This document shows, piece by piece, positions 5,425 to 22,570 of a DNA stretch of 37,618 bases (its first letter is position 1; each line of letters starts with the position of its first letter). Origin of the DNA: Nitrospiria bacterium. GTDB lineage: Bacteria; Nitrospirota; Nitrospiria; SBBL01; JAADHI01. The notes beneath the pieces were generated by a model. The model did no database searches, was not told where the DNA came from, and saw only the letters and a list, made by a program, of their open reading frames with translations. The DNA lies in contig CALZIJ010000037.1 in the NCBI GenBank assembly GCA_945787655.1, forward strand, positions 1 through 37,618. The letters run 5' to 3'. The position numbers and the translations under genes were made by a program.

Positions 5425-6465
5425 GTGTTTAAACAACTTATTGAGAATGGGGAAAAGGTCTTTTCTTCCGATTTAGGCCCCACAAATTCAATTAGAACTG
5501 TCCTTCACGATCTCCATGAAAAAGGAGGACTTGATACTGCAATTTTGTTGATCGAGGGAGAGAAAAAGAATTTTCTTCTTTTCATTCTCGAAGACGAGTG
5601 CTACGCCCTTTATCAGCTTTTTCGAGAAACACTCGCAACCCTTGCATTTTCTGATTTTATAAAGCAAACAACCTCCTTTAAAGGCACTGTCTCCCTTTAC
5701 ACGCTTAGCCCGGTCTTATTTAAATCGCTGCTCATGATGGCCCAAAAGCCGGCGATGATTCTGCCGGCGGCATTAAATGATTCTGACCGTTTGTTTCACT
5801 TTCTTTCAAAAAAGAAAAAAGACAGTGTCCTTGCCTTGAAAAAGAAGGATCACTTGAATGTATTTTACTTTTACAAGGGCGATGTACGAGACAGCTATTT
5901 CGGGAAAAGCTCCAAGACCGTCAAAAAGGCCCTACCTCAGAAGAAAAAACTTGAAGCCGCCCTGTCCGAAGAAGACCTTCTATCTATTCTACTTTTTGAA
6001 CCCGAAAACATTCATGCGGCTCAGGACTGCAAAGAGGCCATGCACGAGATTGCAAATGTCCCTGAAACGGCTTTAGACGGACAGCATCATTTGGAAGATG
6101 ACGAAAAAACCCCGGTCCCCTTCGAAGTCCTTTCAGAAAAATCTTCCAAAACAGACTTCAAATCCGATGATCCTAAACATATTTGGGTTGAAGTTTTAAC
6201 AGGAAGCCGGGCAGGTTTTTTAATCCGCTTTTCCCGAAAACCGGTGAAACTGGGACGAGGGAAAGTCGATGTACAACTTAACGACCCACAAATCTCGCGG
6301 GTCCATGCTGAACTGGAATGGACCGCTTCAGGCCTCTTTATTAGAGACCACAACAGCACCAACGGCCTTTTCGTCAACGATGAAAAAGTAAAAGAAATGA
6401 AACTCACCCTGGAAGATGAAATCCGGCTCGGCGATATTTCGCTAAAGGCTGTCCCGGCATCATGA
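5425..6465 (+). CDS. FHA-domain protein, partner of the downstream kinase
   Basis: The product is 346 residues. The last 90 or so form an FHA phosphothreonine-binding domain with LGRG (Arg278), SRVH (Ser291, His294) and NSTNG (310-314), all the ligand-contacting positions. Residues 1-170 form an unassigned alpha/beta region without membrane segments, followed by a charged, Lys/Glu-rich linker. A stop codon (TAA at 5419-5421) sits two codons before the GTG at 5425, so this GTG is practically forced as the start although no ribosome site precedes it. The gene overlaps the kinase gene by four bases (ATGA), so the two are co-translated; the FHA domain probably binds the autophosphorylated kinase or a common substrate. 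Confidence 0.88.
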   Translation: MFKQLIENGEKVFSSDLGPTNSIRTVLHDLHEKGGLDTAILLIEGEKKNFLLFILEDECYALYQLFRETLATLAFSDFIKQTTSFKGTVSLYTLSPVLFKSLLMMAQKPAMILPAALNDSDRLFHFLSKKKKDSVLALKKKDHLNVFYFYKGDVRDSYFGKSSKTVKKALPQKKKLEAALSEEDLLSILLFEPENIHAAQDCKEAMHEIANVPETALDGQHHLEDDEKTPVPFEVLSEKSSKTDFKSDDPKHIWVEVLTGSRAGFLIRFSRKPVKLGRGKVDVQLNDPQISRVHAELEWTASGLFIRDHNSTNGLFVNDEKVKEMKLTLEDEIRLGDISLKAVPAS

Positions 6466-8876
6466 ATTTCTCCGATTGGCAAGATAAAATCCTCCCCCGA
6501 CTAAGCGCGCTCCCTGAACTTGCCCTGAACTACGTCCTAAATCTCTCCACCCTTTCCCTCGTGGCCTACATTTTACTGGCCGTACTGTTGGTCTGGGGGT
6601 TTTCCTTGTTTAAAAAATATCAATCAATGGATCTTGAACAATCTCACAGCACCTTTCGGGAAGCTGAACAAGCTGCAAAATCAAGCGACCCCCTGCTGGC
6701 CGGGGAGTTGTATGAACAAGCCCAGAATTATCAACGCGCCATTGAATCCTACAAATCCGCAAGGGCTTTTCAACAAGTGGGCCGAGTTTATGAAAAATTA
6801 AAACAATGGGACGACGCCGCTCAATTTTACAACCTTGCCGGCGATTCTGAAAAATCCGCCTTAATGTACCAGCGTGGAGGCAACTATCTGCAAGCAGCAG
6901 AAAGCTATCTCGCATGCAATAAAAATTTATTGGCCGCGGAAATGTATGAAAAGGGACGTGAGTATAAAAAAGCGGCGAGTCAATACGAAAACTTTGGCAA
7001 ACAATTAAAGTCGGCCCAGCTTTACAAACTATCAGAAGATTATGAACGGGCCGCGGAAAAATATGAAGCCTATTTTTTAAAACAAAAAATGGTTTCATCC
7101 AATCAATCCCCCGAAAAATGGGCCCAGGTCAAACAGGCCGCTTTTGAAAGCGGCGGGCTTTATATGAAAATGAAGCGCTACAAAAAAGCGATGGACATTT
7201 TTTCTTCCGCTGAATTTTTCGAACAGGCCGCAGACGCAGCGGTACAAGCCGGAGATATTGAGCATGCGGCCCAGTTTTATCTCTCTGCAAAAAACTTTGA
7301 AAAAGCCGCCAAAATATATGAGGCCATGGGGGATTTAAAACGAGGCCACTGGATTATGGCGAAAAAACATCAGGAAGACGGGAACCTCGCCTTGGCGGCG
7401 CAGGCCTTTGAATCGGGGGAAAGCTGGGTGGAAGCCGCTGAAATGTATGAAAAATCAGGGGACAAAACCAACGCAGGGAAGATGTATCAGCACGCAGGAG
7501 ATTATCATCGGTCGGCGGATTTATTTCTCTCCGTGGACAACCTCGAAGCGGCGGCCAACTCGTTTGAAAGGGGAGGCCGCCTGAATGAAGCCTCGGACCT
7601 TTATGTCCGGCTCAAACAATACGACCGCGCCGCCAAAGTTCAGGAATTAATTGGAAATTATTACGCCGCCGCCCTTTTATTTAAAGACGGGGGGGATACG
7701 GACCAATGCATCTCATATTTACAAAAGGTAGACCCGGATTCTGAAGATTTTTATACCGCAACGCAGCTTTTGGGAGACTTGCTTATTGAACGCAGAATGA
7801 TTCCCGCGGCCAAAGACTGTTTTTTTAAAGTGACCTCAAAAAAAACGATCACTCCGCAAAACATCGAAATCTATTACCGGCAGGCGACCTTACACGAATC
7901 TGAGAAAGAATTTGAAGAAGCAGAAACACTCTATGAACTGATATTACGAAAAGACTACACCTACAAAGATGTCAAACAACGCAGTACACTCCTGAAAAAA
8001 GCCTTGCAAGAAGTTCAAAAAGCATTGGATTCTCAAACCCCCTCTCCACAACAACCCGATGCACGCGGTTCAAACAATGAGAAACGATACAAGATGATTC
8101 GAAAAATTGGACAGGGTGGCATGGGCGTTGTTTACCTTGCGGAAGATTCTGTTTTGAAACGCTCGGTGGCTTACAAGATTCTACCCCAGTCCATCCGTGA
8201 AAACCCTTCCGTGCTGAAAAATTTTTTACAGGAAGCCAGAATTGCAGCCGCCCTGAACCATCCGAATATTGTCACCATTTTTGATACCGGTAAAAATGGT
8301 GATGACATCTATATCACGATGGAATATATCGATGGGATTAGTTTAAAACAATACCTCGAACGATACCGCTCTCCTTTGTCTGAACGGATCGAGATCATGA
8401 AATCGATCTGCCGGGGTGTGGATTATGCCCATCAGCGCAATGTGATTCACCGGGACTTAAAACCGGCGAATGTCATGCTGTTAAAAGACCGCACTGTAAA
8501 AATCATGGATTTTGGCCTGGCCAAAATGCTCACCGAAACGATGAAGGAAAAAACCTCGATTAAAGGCACCCCGCTTTATATGTCGCCGGAACAAATTGTG
8601 GGTGAAAAAGTAGATACTTTATCCGATGTCTATTCCCTGGGCTGTACTTTTTACCGGATGCTGACCGGCCGCCCTCCCTTTACAAAAGGGGATATCTACT
8701 ACCAGCATCTGCATACCCCGCCAACACCGCCGAAAATGGTGGTTTCAAAACTTCCAGCCGAATTAGACCAGATTATTTTAAAGTGCATTGAAAAAGAACG
8801 GGAGAACCGTTTTCAATCCGTAAATGCGCTTTATGAGGCTCTTTCTGCCCTCACGCATACGTCTGTGGTCTCTTAA
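6462..8876 (+). CDS. Membrane-anchored TPR protein with C-terminal Ser/Thr kinase
   Basis: The 804-residue protein has a single membrane helix at about 24-50 (VAYILLAVLLVWGFSLF), then about 480 residues of short helical repeats with a spacing near 20 residues (for example AAEMYEKG, AASQYENFG, SAQLYKLSE), then a Hanks-type kinase from about 541 to 795. Catalytic residues are complete: GQGGMG loop, Lys572, helix-C Glu591, HRD Asp665 and DFG Asp683, plus SPEQ in the activation segment. The positive-inside side suggests that repeats and kinase are cytoplasmic. The order (membrane, repeats, kinase) is the reverse of PknB-type kinases, which carry the kinase at the N-terminus. It overlaps the FHA gene by four bases, pointing to one signalling unit. 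Confidence 0.93.
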   Translation: MNFSDWQDKILPRLSALPELALNYVLNLSTLSLVAYILLAVLLVWGFSLFKKYQSMDLEQSHSTFREAEQAAKSSDPLLAGELYEQAQNYQRAIESYKSARAFQQVGRVYEKLKQWDDAAQFYNLAGDSEKSALMYQRGGNYLQAAESYLACNKNLLAAEMYEKGREYKKAASQYENFGKQLKSAQLYKLSEDYERAAEKYEAYFLKQKMVSSNQSPEKWAQVKQAAFESGGLYMKMKRYKKAMDIFSSAEFFEQAADAAVQAGDIEHAAQFYLSAKNFEKAAKIYEAMGDLKRGHWIMAKKHQEDGNLALAAQAFESGESWVEAAEMYEKSGDKTNAGKMYQHAGDYHRSADLFLSVDNLEAAANSFERGGRLNEASDLYVRLKQYDRAAKVQELIGNYYAAALLFKDGGDTDQCISYLQKVDPDSEDFYTATQLLGDLLIERRMIPAAKDCFFKVTSKKTITPQNIEIYYRQATLHESEKEFEEAETLYELILRKDYTYKDVKQRSTLLKKALQEVQKALDSQTPSPQQPDARGSNNEKRYKMIRKIGQGGMGVVYLAEDSVLKRSVAYKILPQSIRENPSVLKNFLQEARIAAALNHPNIVTIFDTGKNGDDIYITMEYIDGISLKQYLERYRSPLSERIEIMKSICRGVDYAHQRNVIHRDLKPANVMLLKDRTVKIMDFGLAKMLTETMKEKTSIKGTPLYMSPEQIVGEKVDTLSDVYSLGCTFYRMLTGRPPFTKGDIYYQHLHTPPTPPKMVVSKLPAELDQIILKCIEKERENRFQSVNALYEALSALTHTSVVS

Positions 8877-11575: not shown

Positions 11576-13039
11576 TTGAAAAACTTAATTGAAAACTATC
11601 AAACTGAAGGCTATTTTGACGAAATGTTCCAGAATCTGGAAGGCCCCCGCCCCCATTACCGCCAATTAAAGGACCGGCTGGCCCGACTCTCTATTGAAGC
11701 ATTTGATGCCCAGAGAAGACAAGCCGATCAAGTCTTTTTAAATCAAGGCACCACTTTTACCGTTTACGGCGACCCGGAACAAATTGAACGGATTTTCCCC
11801 TTTGATCTGATTCCACGGATTATTCCCAACAGCGAGTGGCAGCATATCGAAAGCGGCCTGAAACAGCGGGTTCATGCCTTAAACTTTTTTCTACGAGATA
11901 TTTACGGGAAACAACAAATTATAAAAGACAAAATCATTCCCCGTGAACTGATTGAAAGCTCTGCGCATTTTTTAAAGGACATGGTCGGCTTTCATCCGCC
12001 CCGAGGGATTTATACCCATATTTCAGGGATTGATCTCATCCGTGATCAAAACGGAGCCTACACCGTTTTGGAGGATAACCTGAGAACCCCTTCAGGGATA
12101 TCCTACGTCCTGGAAAACCGAATTGTCATGAAACAGGTTTTTCCAAACCTGTTTTCAAAAATGCGAGTACGCCCCGTAGACCACTACCCCAACCAGTTGT
12201 TACAAAATTTAAGATACCTTGCGCCATTGCCTCGAGAAAACCCCACTGTCGTGTTACTGACCCCCGGAGTCCATAACTCGGCGTATTTTGAGCATTCTTT
12301 TCTCGCCTTGCAAATGGGCATTGAGTTGGTCGAAGGGCAGGATCTTGTCGTTGAAGGAGACCGCGTTTACATGAAAACAACGGAAGGTCTTGAAATGGTG
12401 GATGTGATATACAGGCGGGTAGACGACGCCTTTATCGACCCCGAAGTCTTTCGCAGTGATTCTGTGCTGGGTGTGCCCGGACTGGTACGAGCCTATCGTG
12501 CGGGCAATGTTGCTTTAGTCAATGCCATCGGGAACGGGATCGCGGACGACAAGGCCACCTACGCCTACGTCCCTAAAATGATTAAATATTATCTGGACGA
12601 AGAGGCCATTTTGCCCAATGTTCCCACCTATCTTTGCAGTCACCCTGAAGAATGCACCTATGTCCTCGAACATCTTTCCGAACTGGTTGTAAAAGCGGTG
12701 AATGAGTCGGGCGGATACGGCATGCTCATGGGCCCGACTTCCACCCAGGCCGAGCAAGACGTCTTCCGTCAGAAAATATTGGCCAATCCGAGAAACTACA
12801 TTGCGCAGCCTGTCATTTCCCTTTCACGATCGCCTTCTGTTGTGACCAACAAGGGGCAGACGGGTTTTTCCCTAGAAGGCCGTCATATTGATTTTAGACC
12901 CTACGTTCTCTTTGGGCGGGATATCACTGTATCCCTGGGAGGATTGACCCGCGTCGCCCTTCGAAAAGGCTCCCTGGTGGTCAACTCTTCACAAGGTGGA
13001 GGCAGCAAGGATACCTGGGTTCTTTATGGAGAAGAATAA
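11576..13039 (+). CDS. Circularly permuted ATP-grasp type 2 protein (DUF404/DUF407)
   Basis: The 487-residue protein matches the circularly permuted ATP-grasp family. Diagnostic segments are YFDEMF and RPHYRQL at the start, [59 protein letters not shown] and the [15 protein letters not shown] end. ATP-grasp enzymes join a carboxylate to an amine or thiol through an acyl phosphate, and this family is predicted to make amide bonds in an unidentified peptide or small molecule. The start is TTG at 11576; the first ATG is inside the conserved YFDEMF segment and would truncate it. The ribosome site is poor. It lies between the secreted protein and the alpha-E/transglutaminase gene on the same strand. 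Confidence 0.92.
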
Positions 13040-13093
13040 CTCAAAACGCGGATGTTCATTGTTATCTTTTACGATTAAAAAAGGAATTTTCTG

Positions 13094-15037
13094 GTGTTAA
13101 GCCGTACCGCTGAAATGTTTTTTTGGATCGGACGCTATATTGAGCGTGCCGAATATACCGCACGTTTAACCAATGTGCATTATGATGTCGCCCTGGAAAG
13201 TGCAGACCGCGACATCCCTTCCGTTGACTGGGGCCGATATCTTGAAAGCCGGGGCGACCATGATTTATACAAGGAACTGTATAAAACCATCCAATCTCAG
13301 CATGTGCTGGAATTTTTGGTACTCGACCCCAATAACCCGAACGCCTTGTTTAACCTGATCAAGATTGCGCGAGAAAACGCCCGCTCGGTTCAGGATCAGT
13401 TAACCAGCGAGGTCTGGCATCACCTCAACGGATTTCACTTAAATCTGAAAACCAGAACCCCATCCGAATTAAAAGACAACCCCCATACCCTGCTACACTA
13501 CATCACCACCCAGTGTTACACTTTGGCCGGCGTTTTTCGAAGCACCATGCTCCGGGATGAAGGCTGGATTTTTTATTGTCTCGGACAAAATATAGAACGT
13601 GCCGGAGAAACCGCCAGTTTACTCATGCACCCGGTGTTTCTTTCAGCGGCACCCAACCCCCGCGCACTCCAGGAATATCAGCAATGCATCACCATTTTAA
13701 AATCAGCCAGCGCCTATCAAGGCTATCGCAGGGTGTACGGAGGGAATATTAACCCCAAAAAAATTGTGCAATTCCTTCTGTTTCATAACCGCTTTCCCCG
13801 TTCTGTACGATTCTCCGTCAATTTAGTCAACCGACTGCTTTCAGAACTTTCAGGGCCCGGACATCATCCCAAGCGAAAATCCACAGAACGTCTGGCCGGA
13901 CAGTTAGTAGCGGATTTGGAATACAGCAGTCTGGAAGAAGTCTACCAAGTGGGTTTATCTTCATTTATTACAGAAGTCACCACTTATCTGGACCAGGTCA
14001 GCAACGGGATCGGCAGTGTATTTTTCAGGGCAAGCGGGTTTACAGACCCGCCTGTTCCCGCCCCCCTAAGACGCCGACGGATTCATACTGAAATTGATGA
14101 AACAGAACTGAATGCCACCAAGGCGATTTTGACCGTCAAGCACCGCTTTACCTATCGTTACGCCTCTCTCGTCAAGCAAGTACGGACCTTGATGCGGCTT
14201 GCGCCGCCTCAACACTATGGACGGCAGAGCCGATTGGACATCGGATGGCACATGGAGCCTTCGGCGGATTATCGGCATTTCACCGATGCGTTTGGCAACC
14301 TGGTTTGGCAGCTCGACCATTCGGATATCAAACAAATCCAATGCCAAATTGATATGCAGATTGAAACCATTGCGCTTTATCAACAAAATGGAGAACTGGC
14401 CGTACAAGGCATCTTACCGCAAGAGTCGGACTGTACCGTGGACCCGATAGAATTCACGAAAATGACCAAGCTCACCGATGACGGAAACCCGACCATGGCC
14501 CAGTGGGCACAAAACCTGCGCGAGCGGGGGGTCGAAGCCACTGAAATGGTCGAAACCATTTTGTATCAGGTCGGAAATCACATGCAATATGAAAGCGGAC
14601 TCACCCATGTGAACACCACTGCATCAGAGGCCTTTACTTTGGGGAAAGGGGTCTGCCAAGACTATACTCATATCATGCTCTCTGTGTGCAGACAAGCCGG
14701 GCTTCCTGCCCGTTATGTCTCAGGTTATTTGCCCGGAGAAGGGCAAATGCATGCCTGGGTGGAAGTCTTGCTTGGTGTCGGCAGCGACCATGTCCCGACC
14801 TGGGTTGCCTACGACCCCACACATCAGTGCCGGTGTGACGAACGATATATCACCGTGGGGATTGGGCGGGATTATCAGGATATTGCCCCGACAAGCGGGT
14901 ATTATTCCGGAGAAGCAACCAGCGAGCTTTCCTCTGAAATCACCGTTATCATTGAATCTCAGGGCCCGGCAGACCGCGTCCCACGGCCGGTCAAATTAGG
15001 CTTGCCTTCAGATGCCCTATCACAACAGCAACAATAG
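13094..15037 (+). CDS. Alpha-E domain fused to a transglutaminase-like protease domain
   Basis: Residues 1 to about 320 form an all-helical alpha-E domain (DUF403), beginning MLSRTAEMFFWIGRYIERAE. Residues about 340-435 are a bacterial transglutaminase N-terminal domain, and about 450-600 a transglutaminase-like core with the triad Cys521 (GVCQDYTH), His553 (MHAWVE) and Asp574 (YDPTH). In most genomes these two parts are neighbouring separate genes; here they are one polypeptide of 647 residues. Family members are predicted to hydrolyse or form peptide or isopeptide bonds. GTG at 13094 is supported by AAGGAA seven to eight bases upstream. It is the last gene of the operon and meets aat head-on. 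Confidence 0.93.
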   Translation: MLSRTAEMFFWIGRYIERAEYTARLTNVHYDVALESADRDIPSVDWGRYLESRGDHDLYKELYKTIQSQHVLEFLVLDPNNPNALFNLIKIARENARSVQDQLTSEVWHHLNGFHLNLKTRTPSELKDNPHTLLHYITTQCYTLAGVFRSTMLRDEGWIFYCLGQNIERAGETASLLMHPVFLSAAPNPRALQEYQQCITILKSASAYQGYRRVYGGNINPKKIVQFLLFHNRFPRSVRFSVNLVNRLLSELSGPGHHPKRKSTERLAGQLVADLEYSSLEEVYQVGLSSFITEVTTYLDQVSNGIGSVFFRASGFTDPPVPAPLRRRRIHTEIDETELNATKAILTVKHRFTYRYASLVKQVRTLMRLAPPQHYGRQSRLDIGWHMEPSADYRHFTDAFGNLVWQLDHSDIKQIQCQIDMQIETIALYQQNGELAVQGILPQESDCTVDPIEFTKMTKLTDDGNPTMAQWAQNLRERGVEATEMVETILYQVGNHMQYESGLTHVNTTASEAFTLGKGVCQDYTHIMLSVCRQAGLPARYVSGYLPGEGQMHAWVEVLLGVGSDHVPTWVAYDPTHQCRCDERYITVGIGRDYQDIAPTSGYYSGEATSELSSEITVIIESQGPADRVPRPVKLGLPSDALSQQQQ

Positions 15038-15955: not shown

Positions 15956-18223
15956 ATGTGGCTTAAATGGCTCCCTTGGCGTTTTCTAATAAAACAGGCC
16001 GCTCAGGCACATGATTTTTTAGACCCCATCGCCTTGCAATCCCGCTTGAATCGATTTGCCCAGCCTTCAGAAGTCACAGAGCCCATCGAACTTCTCCGGG
16101 CGGGTGTGCTCTTTCATGCCAGAGGCCTGATTAATACACGGGCGATTCAACACAACCTGGACTGGGTCTGGCCCTATTGGGTAGAACGGCAATTTAATCC
16201 TCTTGATGAATCTTTTATTCCTCGCGCCTTTTCCATCACCCATGTCAATCTCACTCATCGGAACTGGACAGCCGTCGGCCTGCCGGATGTGGATGCCCTG
16301 CCCATCATTGATCCTCGTGGTCTCGTCACACCGTTTCTTGATGGCTGGTCCCTGGATTTTTGGGTCATTACAAAAGAAGGCCGCATGCTTATTCCCTCCA
16401 AGCTTGCCACCGTGTCTCAAAAAATGTCTTTTGAAACGGGCCTCGGCGTGATCACGGACGTTTCACAGGAAGGACTTTCCTTAAACAGCCATCTTGAAGT
16501 ACTCACGAATGAAGACGGCCCATTTTGTCGAATTTCACTGCAGGCAAAGGCCACCACAGAAGCCGCCCTGGTGGTCACGCTCAGGCCTTATAACCCGGAA
16601 GGCATCAGTTTTATTCATGAGGCCGCGCTTTCGGAAGACCGTTCTTTTTGGCTCATCGACGACGATCATCAAGTTTTGTTCAGCACGCCTGTCGAACAAT
16701 CCTATTTTTCAAGCTATCGGCGTGGAGATGTCTTGGGCGAACTTTTTTCGGACCAAGAAGAAACCGCAATCAGTTGTGATGTCGGCATGGTCACCGCCGC
16801 TGCGATGTTTGAACTTGAACCCGGCAAAAATCGAAAAATCGATGTGGACGTTCTTTTGGAAGGAGAAAATGAATCGCGGCACAGCCATCCAGCATTGGGA
16901 AAATCCTCTGAAAAATCCGTTTGGGACCAAGCCCTGTCAGGACACTGCGTTTTAAAAATCCCGGATCAACAGATTCAGTTGCTCTATGATACCGCCCTTC
17001 GTTCGATTATTTTACATGCGCCTGATGAGGTCTACCCCGGCCCTTACACCTATAAGCGGTTTTGGTTTCGTGATGCGGCGTTTATTCTGCATGCCATGAT
17101 GTGCGCAGGCCTTTTTGACCGCGCTTGCCGCGTGCTGGACCGTTTTCACACACGCCAAACCCGTTCAGGTTATTTTCACTCACAAGACGGCGAGTGGGAC
17201 TCAAATGGCCAAGCCCTTTGGATTATGAACCGTTATTGTGAACTGAGAGGCCGCCGTCCAAAACCGGAATGGGAAAAACCGATCACCAAGGGGGCCGAAT
17301 GGATTATCAAAAAAAGACACCCGGAAAACCTTGATGCCGTTCACGCAGGCCTGCTGCCAGCCGGATTTAGTGCGGAACATCTTGGCCCGAATGACCATTA
17401 TTACTGGGACGACTTTTGGGGAGCCTCTGGACTTTTAGCGGCCGGAGACTTATGTCAGAAATATGGGCATGACAAAGCCGCATCCCGATTCCGGCAAGAA
17501 GCCAAAAGCCTGATGGCGGCAGTGGATCAGAGCCTGATCAAAAGTGCGCCGCTGAGAAGCTTGGACGGGATTCCTGCTTCTCCGTACAGACGGATGGATG
17601 GCGGCGCGGTCGGCTCTCTTGCCGCGGGTTATCCCTTACAGCTTCTGGAAGCAAATGATCCACGGCTTTTAGGGACCGTTGCCTTTTTATTAAAACATTG
17701 TTTTATCAAAGGCGGATTTTTTCAGGATATGATTCATTCCGGCATCAATCCTTATTTAACACTCCATGTGGCGCAAGTGCTGTTACGCGCAGAAGACATC
17801 CGGTTTCTTGATCTCATCCATTCCGTTGCCGAAAGCGCGTCTCCAACCGGGCAATGGCCCGAAGCGATCCACCCCAAAACAGGGGGGGGCTGTATGGGCG
17901 ATGGGCAGCATATATGGGCCGCCGCCGAATGGGTGCTTATGATTAGAAACTGCTTTATCCGTGAAGAGAAAGAAGGCCTGATTTTGTGTTCCGGCATCCC
18001 AAAACAGTGGTTGAAAAAGAATCGGGTGCTGTCCTTTGGTCCAGCCCCCACACCTTTTGGCCCGCTGAGTGTTTTTATTGAGGAAAAGGAAAATGATATT
18101 CATGTACGCTGGCGAGGCGACTGGCGAAAAAATCCACCGCATATCGAAATCCGGCTGCCCGCTTGCGTTTCAGTGACGCCTAAACCCGGTGCCACTGAAG
18201 TCTCTGTCAAGCGCAAGCCCTGA
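15956..18223 (+). CDS. Six-hairpin glycosidase-like protein
   Basis: The product is 755 residues without a signal peptide. Residues up to about 310 are beta-rich; from about 330 to 680 there is an (alpha/alpha)6-barrel with FWFRDAAF (Asp373), YYWDDFWG (Asp485, Asp486), GQWPEA (Glu636) and DGQHIWAAAEW, the arrangement of glucoamylase, trehalase and GH63-like enzymes; a small beta domain closes the protein. Acid and base residues are probably among Asp485/486 and Glu636. The substrate is unknown; alpha-glucan or trehalose-like glycosides are the best guesses. A good ribosome site (GGAGG) precedes the ATG. It is followed after 87 bases by the glycosyltransferase gene. Confidence 0.8.
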   Translation: MWLKWLPWRFLIKQAAQAHDFLDPIALQSRLNRFAQPSEVTEPIELLRAGVLFHARGLINTRAIQHNLDWVWPYWVERQFNPLDESFIPRAFSITHVNLTHRNWTAVGLPDVDALPIIDPRGLVTPFLDGWSLDFWVITKEGRMLIPSKLATVSQKMSFETGLGVITDVSQEGLSLNSHLEVLTNEDGPFCRISLQAKATTEAALVVTLRPYNPEGISFIHEAALSEDRSFWLIDDDHQVLFSTPVEQSYFSSYRRGDVLGELFSDQEETAISCDVGMVTAAAMFELEPGKNRKIDVDVLLEGENESRHSHPALGKSSEKSVWDQALSGHCVLKIPDQQIQLLYDTALRSIILHAPDEVYPGPYTYKRFWFRDAAFILHAMMCAGLFDRACRVLDRFHTRQTRSGYFHSQDGEWDSNGQALWIMNRYCELRGRRPKPEWEKPITKGAEWIIKKRHPENLDAVHAGLLPAGFSAEHLGPNDHYYWDDFWGASGLLAAGDLCQKYGHDKAASRFRQEAKSLMAAVDQSLIKSAPLRSLDGIPASPYRRMDGGAVGSLAAGYPLQLLEANDPRLLGTVAFLLKHCFIKGGFFQDMIHSGINPYLTLHVAQVLLRAEDIRFLDLIHSVAESASPTGQWPEAIHPKTGGGCMGDGQHIWAAAEWVLMIRNCFIREEKEGLILCSGIPKQWLKKNRVLSFGPAPTPFGPLSVFIEEKENDIHVRWRGDWRKNPPHIEIRLPACVSVTPKPGATEVSVKRKP

Positions 18224-18310
18224 TTAATGTTCCACAGCCAGGGCTAAAAAAATGAACGACCATATTCCCACTTGATAACCCATCCATGGTGGGGATGAAA
18301 GAGAGGCAGT

Positions 18311-19600
18311 ATGAATATACTCACGATGAGCAATACTTTCACACCCCATGTCGGGGGTGTTGCCCGATCATTAGAGCGGTTTCGCGTTGAATTCAGGAAA
18401 AGAGGACACCGGGATCTTGTGGTCGCTCCGACTTTTGAAGATCTCCCGGAAAAAGAAGTCGATGTGGTTCGTGTTCCCGCCATACAGAATTTTAATGGCA
18501 GTGACTTTTCCGTCCGGCTGCCCATCCCCGCGCTTTTATTTCCAGCGCTTGAAAAATTCAAACCGGATGTCGTACATGCGCATCATCCATTCTTGCTCGG
18601 TGACACGGCACTTCGCATCGCAGCCCTGCATCAAATCCCCCATATCTTTACGCACCACACGCTTTATGAACAATACACCCACTACGTCCCTGGAGATTCG
18701 TCCGCCATGAAACGTTTTGTGATGGAATTGTCAACCGGTTATGCAAATTTGTGTGATGCGGTCATCGCCCCCAGCGAAAGTGTCGCCTCGACCCTCCAAA
18801 AAAGGGGGGTCACCACCCCCATCGCAGTCATTCCGACAGGCATTGGAAAGGAATGGTTTTTTCAAAAAGACAGACAACGTTGTAAACAGGAAATGGGCCT
18901 TCCGGCAAAGGCTTTTGTGATTGGACATGTGGGACGGCTTGCGCCTGAAAAAAACCTGGATTTTTTGTGTGACGCAGTGATTGATTTCATGCGTCAACAT
19001 CCCGAATCACACTTTCTTCTTGTGGGGCATGGACCACTTGAAGATCATATCTCGGCAAATTTTGAAGCGGCGGGATTGGCACAGCGATACCATCCGATTG
19101 GCGAGGTCGGCCCTGAAAAACTGGTTATTGCCTATCAAGCCATGGATGCCTTTTTGTTTTCCTCTCAAAGCGAAACACAAGGAATGGTGCTTACCGAAGC
19201 GATGGCCGGAGGCACCCCTGTCGTCGCGATCGATGCGTCAGGCGTGCGTGAAGTCGTCCAGGATTGTGTCAATGGTCGGCTGATTCCCAAAGAAAACCGG
19301 GAACATTTTGTAGCATGCATCCGCTGGATATACGAACAATCCAATGATGCCCGGGAAAAAATCAGAACGGCCGCACGCGACACCGCCGAATCCTTTTCCA
19401 TCGTGCGGATGACCGCCCGTGTTCTGGGACTCTATGAAAACCTGATTCGAAAAGAACGCATCAATAAAAAAGTGGAAGACAGTGGGTGGCTTTCCTTACT
19501 GCCCCTCATCGAAACAGAATGGGACCTTTGGGCCAATCGCGCCAGTGCTGTCACTTCGGCATTGATAGATGAAGAGGACGACAATTCGGAGGAGGCATGA
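18311..19600 (+). CDS. GT4-family glycosyltransferase, glycolipid synthase-like
   Basis: A 429-residue GT-B glycosyltransferase. The N-terminal domain has the acceptor-side glycine loop PHVGGVARS and HAHHPFLLGDTA; the THHTLYEQYTHYVP segment is much like bacterial diacylglycerol alpha-glucosyltransferases. The C-terminal domain has GRLAPEKNLD and the E-x7-E motif (Glu288, Glu296). It most likely uses a nucleotide sugar at the cytoplasmic membrane face, with a lipid as probable acceptor. About 45 residues after the last family helix form an acidic tail ending in EEDDNSEEA. The ribosome site is GAGAGG. Its stop overlaps the next start by four bases, so the two are translationally coupled. Confidence 0.92.
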   Translation: MNILTMSNTFTPHVGGVARSLERFRVEFRKRGHRDLVVAPTFEDLPEKEVDVVRVPAIQNFNGSDFSVRLPIPALLFPALEKFKPDVVHAHHPFLLGDTALRIAALHQIPHIFTHHTLYEQYTHYVPGDSSAMKRFVMELSTGYANLCDAVIAPSESVASTLQKRGVTTPIAVIPTGIGKEWFFQKDRQRCKQEMGLPAKAFVIGHVGRLAPEKNLDFLCDAVIDFMRQHPESHFLLVGHGPLEDHISANFEAAGLAQRYHPIGEVGPEKLVIAYQAMDAFLFSSQSETQGMVLTEAMAGGTPVVAIDASGVREVVQDCVNGRLIPKENREHFVACIRWIYEQSNDAREKIRTAARDTAESFSIVRMTARVLGLYENLIRKERINKKVEDSGWLSLLPLIETEWDLWANRASAVTSALIDEEDDNSEEA

Positions 19601-21972
19601 TCGGAAAGATTGAAAGCTTTTTTCTAAAACTGCGGCGGGGGCTGAGCAGAAATGAATGGCTCGTACGCCTTTTAGGACTTTCCAGGGCCGAAGGGACTGA
19701 ATCCGAGGTCGGGATTGTCTTAATCCAAATCGACGGCCTGGCCCGACCTCAATTAGAAAAAGCCTTGTCCCATCGCCGAATGCCATTTCTCAAAAAATTG
19801 ATCAAAAAAGAACATTACGATTTACACACGCTATATACGGGCCTGCCCAGCAATACGCCTGCCTTTCAGGGTGAACTATTTTACGGTATTCGAACCTGTG
19901 TTCCGGCCTTTAGTTTTCGAAATCGAGAAACCGGAGAAATTATCAAAATGTTCGAACCGGGTTCTGCTTCAGCCATTCAGGAAAAACTTGAGAAAAAAGG
20001 CGAGGGCTTGTTGAAAGACGGCTGCGCCTATTCCAATATTTTTTCTGGTGGCGCAGCGGAAAGTACTTTTTGTGCCGCCACACTCGACTGGGGGAAAAGT
20101 TTACGGGGGGCCAATCCTCTTTCCATGGCGATCTTTATTTTCTGGAACATCTGGAGTTTTATCCGGGTGGGACTCCTTTTAGTGGTCGAAACCGTTTTGG
20201 CCGTGGTTGATTTTTTTAGAGGACTGATCGCAGGCCATGATTTATGGAAAGAATTGCGGTTTGTTCCCGCGCGGGTGGCGGTTTCAATCCTCCTTCGGGA
20301 GCTGGTGACCTTAAATGCCATGATGGATACCGCTCGCGGTCTCCCGGTGGTTCAACTCAATTTTATCGGTTACGACGAGCAGGCACACCGCCGTGGGCCT
20401 TCGTCTGCTTTTGCCCATTGGACATTAAAAGGGATCGACCAATCGATCAAGCGGGTCTGGAAAGCCGCTAAACGTTCGGGACGGCGCGACTATGAAATCT
20501 GGATTTATTCTGATCATGGACAAGAGGAATCCACCCCCTATGCTGAAATCACCGGCCGGTCCGTGGAAGAAGCCATTGACGAACTTTTTGACCAAGTCTC
20601 ACAACACCCCAAACCCACTCAAGGCATCGAGTTTCACCGTTCAGAATGGCTGAGCATTCCCTTTGGACGGTGGCTTTTTGGTGAAACGACACAGAAAGAA
20701 GAAGCCACACTGCTGGAACCTGTGGTAACGGCAATGGGTCCGGTCGGACATGTTTATGTCAATCGACCGCTTTCTTTGGAAATGCGCGTGCAAAAGGCAA
20801 AAGAAATGGTAGAGAAAGCCAAGATCCCCATGGTGGCGATTCCTGACCCGGAAGGGATCGTAAAAATTATGACCGCGGATGGACTTTTTCACCTGCCCGA
20901 ACATGAAAAGGATGTTTTTGGACTGGATCACCCCTTCATCGTTGAAGTCTCCGAGGACATGGTCAGACTCTGCCGCCACCCGGATTGTGGCGATTTTGTG
21001 CTTTTTGGCTGGGCCAAAAACGGCGTTTCGATTAGTTTTCCAGGAGAAAATGGTGCGCATGCCGGACCCGGTCCTAATGAAACAACCGGCTTTGCACTCT
21101 TGCCGGGTACTGCCCCGGTGACCCTGGCGGGTGACCGGACAATGCGGCCGCTGGATCTACGGGAAGGGATCCTCCAGTTTCTTGGCCGCTCCTCCAATGC
21201 ATTCCCCGGGCGACGACGAAAAAAAATACAGAAACAAGAGCACCTTCGCGTCATGACCTACAATGTACACAGTTGTATTGGAATGGATGGAAAATCCTCG
21301 CCGGAGCGGATAGCCCGTATCATCGCCCAATATGCCCCCGATATTGTCGCCCTGCAAGAGTTGGATGTCGGACGCCAGCGCACAGGGGAAGTTGATCAGG
21401 CAGAAGTCATCGCGCGAACACTTGAAATGGACTTTCATTTTCACCCTGCCATGCAAATGGCGGAAGAAAAATATGGCAACGCGATTTTAAGCCATCATCC
21501 GATCCGTTTGATCCGCGCCGCAGAACTTCCACGGCCGCCCAAAGCGCCTGGCCTGGAACCGAGAGGCGCCCTGTGGGTCAGTATCGAAATCAAGGGTGTC
21601 CCATATCAACTCATTAACACCCATTTAGGCCTTTCACGTTATGAAAGGCTGCTTCAATGTAACGCCTTATTGGGGGAAAACTGGCTGGGGCATTCAGACT
21701 GTCAAGGTCCGATCATCCTTTGCGGGGATTTCAACGCCAGTCCAAAATCCCGAGTCTGCCGGAAGCTGACCGTTCCGCTTCAAGATGCCCAGGACAGTTT
21801 GCCCAATCATCGCCCCAAACCCACCTGGTTTGGGCGGCTCCCGATTAATCGCATAGATCATATTTTTGTGGACCCCTCAATTGAGGTCCATGCGGTTGAT
21901 GTACCTCGAACAGTACTGACCCGCAATGCTTCAGATCACTTGCCTCTCATCGTCGATATCCGCCTGCCATAG
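19597..21972 (+). CDS. Fusion of alkaline-phosphatase-superfamily domain and EEP phosphodiesterase
   Basis: The 791-residue protein has two catalytic domains. Residues about 38-510 are of the type I phosphodiesterase/alkaline-phosphatase superfamily: Asp46 (IQIDGL), probable nucleophile Thr87 (SNTPAFQG), Asp260 and His264 (GYDEQAH), Asp306-His307 (SDHGQ) and a later GAHAGPG. A hydrophobic hairpin at about 175-213 interrupts it. Residues about 550-791 are an endonuclease/exonuclease/phosphatase (EEP) domain with TYNVHS, ALQELD, GDFNASP and SDHLPLI. Both folds cleave phosphodiesters or phosphomonoesters with metals. No signal peptide is seen. ATGA overlap with the glycosyltransferase implies a common product, perhaps a phospholipid or phosphoglycan. 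Confidence 0.88.
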   Translation: MIGKIESFFLKLRRGLSRNEWLVRLLGLSRAEGTESEVGIVLIQIDGLARPQLEKALSHRRMPFLKKLIKKEHYDLHTLYTGLPSNTPAFQGELFYGIRTCVPAFSFRNRETGEIIKMFEPGSASAIQEKLEKKGEGLLKDGCAYSNIFSGGAAESTFCAATLDWGKSLRGANPLSMAIFIFWNIWSFIRVGLLLVVETVLAVVDFFRGLIAGHDLWKELRFVPARVAVSILLRELVTLNAMMDTARGLPVVQLNFIGYDEQAHRRGPSSAFAHWTLKGIDQSIKRVWKAAKRSGRRDYEIWIYSDHGQEESTPYAEITGRSVEEAIDELFDQVSQHPKPTQGIEFHRSEWLSIPFGRWLFGETTQKEEATLLEPVVTAMGPVGHVYVNRPLSLEMRVQKAKEMVEKAKIPMVAIPDPEGIVKIMTADGLFHLPEHEKDVFGLDHPFIVEVSEDMVRLCRHPDCGDFVLFGWAKNGVSISFPGENGAHAGPGPNETTGFALLPGTAPVTLAGDRTMRPLDLREGILQFLGRSSNAFPGRRRKKIQKQEHLRVMTYNVHSCIGMDGKSSPERIARIIAQYAPDIVALQELDVGRQRTGEVDQAEVIARTLEMDFHFHPAMQMAEEKYGNAILSHHPIRLIRAAELPRPPKAPGLEPRGALWVSIEIKGVPYQLINTHLGLSRYERLLQCNALLGENWLGHSDCQGPIILCGDFNASPKSRVCRKLTVPLQDAQDSLPNHRPKPTWFGRLPINRIDHIFVDPSIEVHAVDVPRTVLTRNASDHLPLIVDIRLP

Positions 21973-22071
21973 CCGCAATATTCCCTTCTTCAATGTTCGA
22001 TCGCGCCCCGGAAAAAATAGATTTGCCTTTCATTCTTGATAGGCGTATTCATTAATTATGTCGTATTGATA

Positions 22072-22099
22072 TGGACACAAAAAAACGTTCAGGTATACT
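22072..22099 (+). promoter_or_regulatory. Promoter of the CBM48 gene
   Basis: TGGACA (22072-22077), a 16-base spacer and TATACT (22094-22099), each 5 of 6 to consensus. The start would be near 22106, leaving a leader of about 159 bases before the ATG. The rest of 21973-22264 shows nothing else clear. Confidence 0.55.
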
Positions 22100-22264
22100 C
22101 ATGAATCTATGGAACAGACAAGCCAATTTTTTTAAAAATGAGCCCTTTTAATTCAAAACGAAACTCTCTGTTGAAAAAAATCTCTCACTCGTTTTAGGGA
22201 TCGATGAAATCCCTTGAGTTGTCCATGTCATAAACCACGTTTCTAATATAAGGAGGACTTTCTC

Positions 22265-22570
22265 ATGGCTGCAAAAAAACAATACTTAAAATCAAAACCG
22301 ATCTGCAAAACAAAATTCATTATGCCAAAACAGGCTGTTGGTAATGCCCAGTCCGTCAATATCGTCGGAGACTTTAATCAGTGGGATATCCAGGCCACAC
22401 CCATGAAAAAGTTGAAAAACGGGTCTTTTTCGGTCGGAATCGACCTCCCCGCCGGCAAAGAATACCAATATCGCTATTTGATTGACGGGGAAAAATGGGA
22501 AAACGACTGGGCGGCTGATAAATATGTCCCTTCTTCGTTTGGCCCGGATAATTCCGTGATCGTCGTTTAA
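22265..22570 (+). CDS. Stand-alone CBM48/isoamylase N-terminal-like protein
   Basis: The 101-residue protein is nearly all one early-set beta-sandwich of the kind found at the N-terminus of isoamylase and glycogen branching enzyme and in AMPK beta subunits: VNIVGDFNQWD, a central strand FSVGIDLPAG and YQYRYLIDGEKWENDW, with the Trp and Tyr residues that stack on alpha-glucan. No catalytic domain is attached. A basic stretch (MAAKKQYLKSK) leads in. AAGGAGG precedes the ATG. It probably binds glycogen or a related glucan, or targets a partner to it; its position after the glycosidase and glycosyltransferase genes suits this. Confidence 0.87.
   Translation: MAAKKQYLKSKPICKTKFIMPKQAVGNAQSVNIVGDFNQWDIQATPMKKLKNGSFSVGIDLPAGKEYQYRYLIDGEKWENDWAADKYVPSSFGPDNSVIVV

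Follow-up and report, generated by a model that had tools for sequence, protein, structure and literature searches.

A conserved glycosidase, glycosyltransferase and fused phosphoesterase cassette that probably makes and trims a membrane glycolipid

Introduction

Which of four neighbouring genes in an uncultured bacterium belong to one pathway, and on what kind of molecule would that pathway act? The question is raised by a locus on contig C37 of a 3.04 Mb Nitrospirota genome. The window, i.e. the whole stretch of 37,618 nucleotides that was analysed, carries in succession genes for a six-hairpin glycosidase (GH), a GT4 glycosyltransferase (GT), a fused double phosphoesterase (PDE::EEP) and a lone CBM48 protein. 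The sequence-only reading had proposed that the four together synthesise, trim and recycle a glucosylated lipid or a storage glucan attached to lipid. Exchange of phospholipids for glycolipids is known from a few operons, for example PlcP-Agt.

Results

Gene layout and conservation

All four genes are intact open reading frames on the plus strand, and their coordinates were confirmed: GH at 15956-18223 (755 aa), GT at 18311-19600 (429 aa), PDE::EEP at 19597-21972 (791 aa) and the CBM48 gene at 22265-22570 (101 aa). GH and GT are spaced by 87 nt. The stop codon of GT and the start codon of PDE::EEP overlap in an ATGA at 19597-19600, indicative of translational coupling, as had been noticed before. 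The 292 nt between PDE::EEP and the CBM48 gene contain the top promoter-like match of the region (22072-22099); the promoter and terminator scan returned 10 matches for 8.3 expected, and promoter-like matches were not commoner than in shuffled sequences. A Pho-box scan that allowed up to 3 mismatches gave 3 matches where 1.9 were expected, which is not above chance; phosphate control of the cassette is thus unsupported and was rejected.

The order GH-GT-PDE::EEP is kept in 19 loci: 5 belong to Nitrospirota genomes and 14 to named metagenome-assembled genomes outside the phylum. Our search among 58 genomes of relatives found full-length PDE::EEP in four further genomes (G002, G003, G007 and G019), and GT and GH immediately precede it in all of them. 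The scan of named genomes yielded 26 loci, three of which repeated G003, G007 and G002 and were set aside. The 14 genomes outside the phylum are labelled Gammaproteobacteria (including Tenderia, Thiogranum and Methylobacter bins), Rhodospirillales, Desulfuromonadaceae, Omnitrophota and, in one doubtful case, Halobacteria. GH is cut by a contig end in 3 of these 14 loci, and contig ends also cut L041 and L049. Four-base overlaps link GH to GT and GT to PDE in several Gammaproteobacteria. Across 16 carriers the pairwise distances of GH, GT and PDE correlate with r=0.92-0.96, to which shared species history contributes, and the three trees are concordant in their main groups. GH, GT and PDE::EEP are one conserved, co-inherited cassette. 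The expectation that all four genes form a unit was therefore borne out for the first three, whose neighbourhood is conserved; the linkage of CBM48 was not kept.

One apparent separation of the cassette, in L046, was rejected: GT falls in a scaffold gap (a run of N) and GH and VTT, the partner described below, lie elsewhere in the same assembly (L162), which points to an assembly problem. Mariniblastus and 3 Nitrospirota genomes of other classes have PDE::EEP but neither GH nor GT; the fusion hence has a separate use. A genome of the same genus, G001, has kept GH intact together with a 21-codon remnant of GT, and PDE::EEP was not found in it; this locus (L118:6710-9097, on contig C40 of G001) is possibly a natural partial deletion of the cassette. 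The locus labelled 'Halobacteria archaeon' (L035, JABDRC010000274.1) groups with the gammaproteobacterial cassettes and probably stems from a mislabelled or contaminated bin.

CBM48 is a chance neighbour

The CBM48 assignment itself is sound (Pfam PF02922, 36.6 bits against a cut-off of 22.4). Orthologues with 77-82% identity exist in three congeneric genomes: in G002 and G003 they lie on contigs other than that of the cassette, and G004 has no cassette at all. In G003 the CBM48 gene is followed by cupin, ALS and ALDH genes, matching the window. G001, which has GH, lacks CBM48. Among the other carriers no CBM48 was found near the cassette, except in L048 at a distance of 8 kb. A conserved linkage with GH-GT-PDE::EEP was thus not found, and we rejected CBM48 as the fourth member that it had been thought to be; it stands beside the cassette by accident only. 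Small CBM48 genes in tandem (open frames of about 135 and 235 aa) were seen in L092, L094, L098 and others; such a pair occurs in many genomes of one family (f6) within the class.

A VTT protein as the fourth partner

A VTT-domain protein of about 240 aa (DedA/TMEM64-type) is encoded directly upstream of GH in 10 non-Nitrospirota loci and abuts or slightly overlaps GH in most of them. This membrane protein is a real fourth partner, which the sequence-only reading had missed. The Nitrospirota cassettes lack it; VTT homologues encoded at other sites of these genomes are more distantly related.

VTT proteins also accompany relatives of the EEP domain. In other Nitrospirota and in Deltaproteobacteria, free-standing EEP relatives (50-56% identity) adjoin VTT and PLD/cardiolipin-synthase-like genes, and in Rhizobium such a relative lies near a PLD gene. 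As free-standing members sit in these VTT-EEP-PLD modules, the EEP subfamily is likely tied to membrane-lipid chemistry. At one further locus (L137:6507-9558, G011:C16) an EEP gene adjoins a gene for a single protein in which a PLD cardiolipin-synthase-like part and a VTT domain are fused.

The glycosidase

GH found no family in Pfam, even at E=10, or in NCBIfam, and phmmer gave no match in the PDB. The top PDB sequence match of a GH profile was dextran dextrinase, at a weak E=0.035, with the WED of that enzyme aligned to W484-D485-D486. In the AlphaFold model of GH (mean pLDDT 71.9, pTM 0.77) a beta-sandwich precedes a helical (alpha/alpha)6 barrel. The label 'six-hairpin', given from sequence, is therefore right, and the predicted architecture is that of GH15. 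Foldseek placed GH15 glucodextranase, GH94 cellobiose phosphorylase, GH15 dextran dextrinase and a bacterial glucoamylase nearest (1ug9 with E=9e-15; 9ju0; 1lf6 with TMt 0.59). GH65 glucosylglycerol phosphorylase and GH94 phosphorylases were also close.

In a full-length alignment of 16 members, E413, D415, W484-D485, E636, D649 and H652 are invariant. The W-D-D and W-P-E motifs would occupy the acid and base places of GH15: E636 (in GQWPE) is at the position of the base, and the acid position aligns to D485 (in W-D-D), an Asp instead of the usual GH15 Glu. GH would be an inverting hydrolase with D485 as candidate acid and E636 as candidate base, an assignment that rests on sequence since the model loops around 463-484 and 635-650 are of low confidence. 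The N-terminus carries a conserved Trp-rich basic segment, MWLKWLPWRFLI, without signal-peptide features; the predicted location is cytoplasmic. Cytoplasmic prediction and Trp-rich N-terminus set GH apart from GH15, as does the lack of a significant family-model match from GH15, GH94 and GH65 alike. This group may deserve a family of its own.

Distant secreted relatives of 1040-1100 aa, in another family of the class, keep the R-D, E-W-D-S, W-D-[DN]-F-W, E636 and G-D...H-x-W positions, and they cluster with a GH1-like gene and genes for sugar ABC transporters. One such cluster (L117:3241-12288, G268:C6) encodes, besides sugar ABC transporters and a GH1-like protein, two secreted 1040-aa relatives with F5/8 type C domains; genomes of this family (that of G268) have at most 3 partial matches each.

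The glycosyltransferase

GT has the Pfam domains PF13439 and PF00534 and belongs to GT4. H116, R209, K214 and E288-x7-E296 are invariant in an alignment of 19 homologues; residues of the R209, K214 and E-x7-E type mark retaining GT4 enzymes. The best NCBIfam match over the full length is NF049988 (alpha-monoglucosyldiacylglycerol synthase, MGS), at 146 bits (145.8), and the second best is GlcNAc-phosphatidylglycerol synthase. GT is the sole MGS-like GT4 of the genome over full length, the next glycosyltransferase reaching 49 bits with NF049988. The motif noted in the sequence-only reading is of the HTxYExYxHY type and is shared with MGS, and the resemblance to diacylglycerol glucosyltransferases held up in so far as GT looks lipid-directed. 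Its 146 bits are far under the curated MGS cut-off of 400 and do not fix the acceptor; glucosylation of diacylglycerol is accordingly a putative activity of this diacylglycerol-glycosyltransferase-like GT4. GT also matches the GT4-conflict model PF20706 with 28.6 bits. PADLOC models found no match among the proteins of the locus, and an anti-phage system was rejected.

The fused phosphoesterase

PDE::EEP joins an N-terminal type I phosphodiesterase of the alkaline phosphatase superfamily (PF01663, residues about 1-540) to a C-terminal endonuclease/exonuclease/phosphatase domain (EEP, PF03372, about 547-791). Both catalytic sets are intact in a 22-member alignment. The metal-binding set D..T..D-H..D-H..H of PF01663 is present, with D46, T87 and D260 invariant and H264, D306, H307 and H488 nearly so. 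The EEP set of N, E, H, D-x-N and D-H is represented by invariant N556, E588, H676, D711, N713, D780 and H781. Hydropathy reveals a hydrophobic stretch at about 175-215 of the PDE domain, and the protein has no export signal.

Discussion

Taken together, the cassette probably makes and trims a sugar-bearing membrane lipid. In more specific terms, GH, GT and PDE::EEP, with VTT in most carriers outside Nitrospirota, may well act as a membrane-glycolipid cassette at the cytoplasmic face of the inner membrane. This is suggested by the lipid modules around the EEP relatives, the VTT partner, the diacylglycerol-type likeness of GT, the membrane features of PDE and GH, and the precedent of PlcP-Agt. 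In the order of steps that we infer, one or both phosphoesterase domains would strip the phospho-headgroup from a phospholipid and leave a diacylglycerol-type acceptor, to which GT would transfer a hexose from a nucleotide sugar. The Trp/Arg-rich N-terminus would hold GH close to the membrane, where it could hydrolyse or shorten the glycolipid and so set its amount or the length of its sugar. VTT, where present, might shift lipid between the leaflets. Against the glycolipid reading stand the low MGS score of GT, the functional diversity of the GT4 and EEP families, the modest confidence of the GH model near the active-site loops, the carriers that have PDE::EEP but no GH and GT, and the chance-level Pho-box matches. 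From the pathway first imagined, the three enzymes survive as one unit and the glycolipid as the best reading; the storage glucan and CBM48 do not.

The closest functional parallel may be found in Agrobacterium, SAR11 and the Roseobacter clade, where the phosphoesterase PlcP and the glycosyltransferase Agt, encoded in one operon, convert phospholipid to diacylglycerol and then to glycolipid (PMC4796936). There, as here, a phosphoesterase gene adjoins that of a glycolipid-type glycosyltransferase, and the best reading of the cassette is that it works like this lipid remodelling. It has no PlcP metallophosphoesterase beside an Agt; its type I phosphodiesterase-EEP fusion takes that place, a glycosidase and often a VTT protein are added, and a Pho-box was not found. 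We take PlcP to be a different enzyme from the PF01663 and PF03372 phosphoesterase and, given also the extra glycosidase, do not count the cassette as a PlcP-Agt member. The VTT-EEP-PLD modules (cf. the EEP protein YbhP and the cardiolipin synthase ClsB of E. coli) share with it the EEP subfamily and the VTT protein, but carry a PLD/cardiolipin-synthase-like enzyme where the cassette carries GH, GT and the PDE fusion. For GH a further likeness is offered by the non-lysosomal glucosylceramidase GBA2 of GH116, a six-hairpin enzyme that is associated with the membrane on its cytoplasmic side and acts on a glycolipid. A GH116 structure was among the fold matches of GH; the match is, however, weaker than to GH15, and there was no DUF608/GH116 Pfam match.

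Two other explanations appear unlikely to us, although each accounts for part of the data. The PDE domain might be a phospho-headgroup transferase that decorates the product of GT, with EEP removing or remodelling the group, in a phosphoglycolipid pathway. Precedents are LtaS and the GPI ethanolamine-phosphate transferases, which PF01663 also takes in; the match of EEP to the PGAP2IP nuclease-like model (36.7 bits, cut-off 27) and the GlcNAc-phosphatidylglycerol synthase that ranks second for GT fit as well. The known transferases of the LtaS and PIG-N type, however, are active on the outer or luminal face, whereas PDE::EEP has only its central hydrophobic stretch to bring it to a membrane and lacks an export signal. 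The product could instead be a soluble or polyprenyl-linked glucoside that is made and recycled, for instance glucosylglycerol or another osmolyte, or else a short glycan. We consider this improbable to a similar degree: the proximity of the GH fold to GH65 glucosylglycerol phosphorylase and the GH94 phosphorylases argues for it, as does the inclusion of sucrose-phosphate-synthase-like and MshA-type enzymes in GT4, but neither the lipid modules and VTT partner nor the membrane features of PDE and GH would be expected.

It is highly improbable that the genes make and recycle a lipid-attached storage glucan to which the CBM48 protein would bind. The genome does encode GlgX and GlgB, and CBM48 does adjoin the cassette in this single genome. 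The two glycogen genes lie on contig C92, away from the cassette, and with CBM48 excluded the idea loses its support; the synteny in the congeners and in the other carriers largely refutes it.

In searches of open-licence papers we found no description of the GH-GT-PDE::EEP set, and we know of none. Returning to the glycolipid reading, it is conceivable, if doubtful, that VTT, GH, GT4 and PDE::EEP constitute an undescribed, horizontally mobile glycolipid-editing operon shared across distant phyla, one that encodes both the making and the removal of a membrane glycolipid and whose GH founds a new CAZy family acting on a lipid-linked sugar at the cytoplasmic membrane. If true, this would be a second, unrelated gene set for the exchange of glycolipid and phospholipid, one that brings along a glycosidase and a membrane protein that moves lipid. 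It would reveal membrane tuning in uncultured Nitrospirota and in Gammaproteobacteria of the sulfur and methane cycles, and both the EEP-VTT-PLD modules and an unclassified group of glycosidases would gain a function.

Two other gene groups of the window deserve mention. At 11576-15037 a circularly permuted ATP-grasp gene lies beside an alpha-E::transglutaminase fusion; the pair resembles the predicted peptide-ligase/peptidase clusters described for ATP-grasp, alpha-E and transglutaminase domains. We rejected it as an upstream part of the cassette, to which it is adjacent only in G003 among the other carriers. At 5425-8876 an FHA-domain gene overlaps by 4 bases with the next gene, which encodes a TPR-protein kinase fusion.
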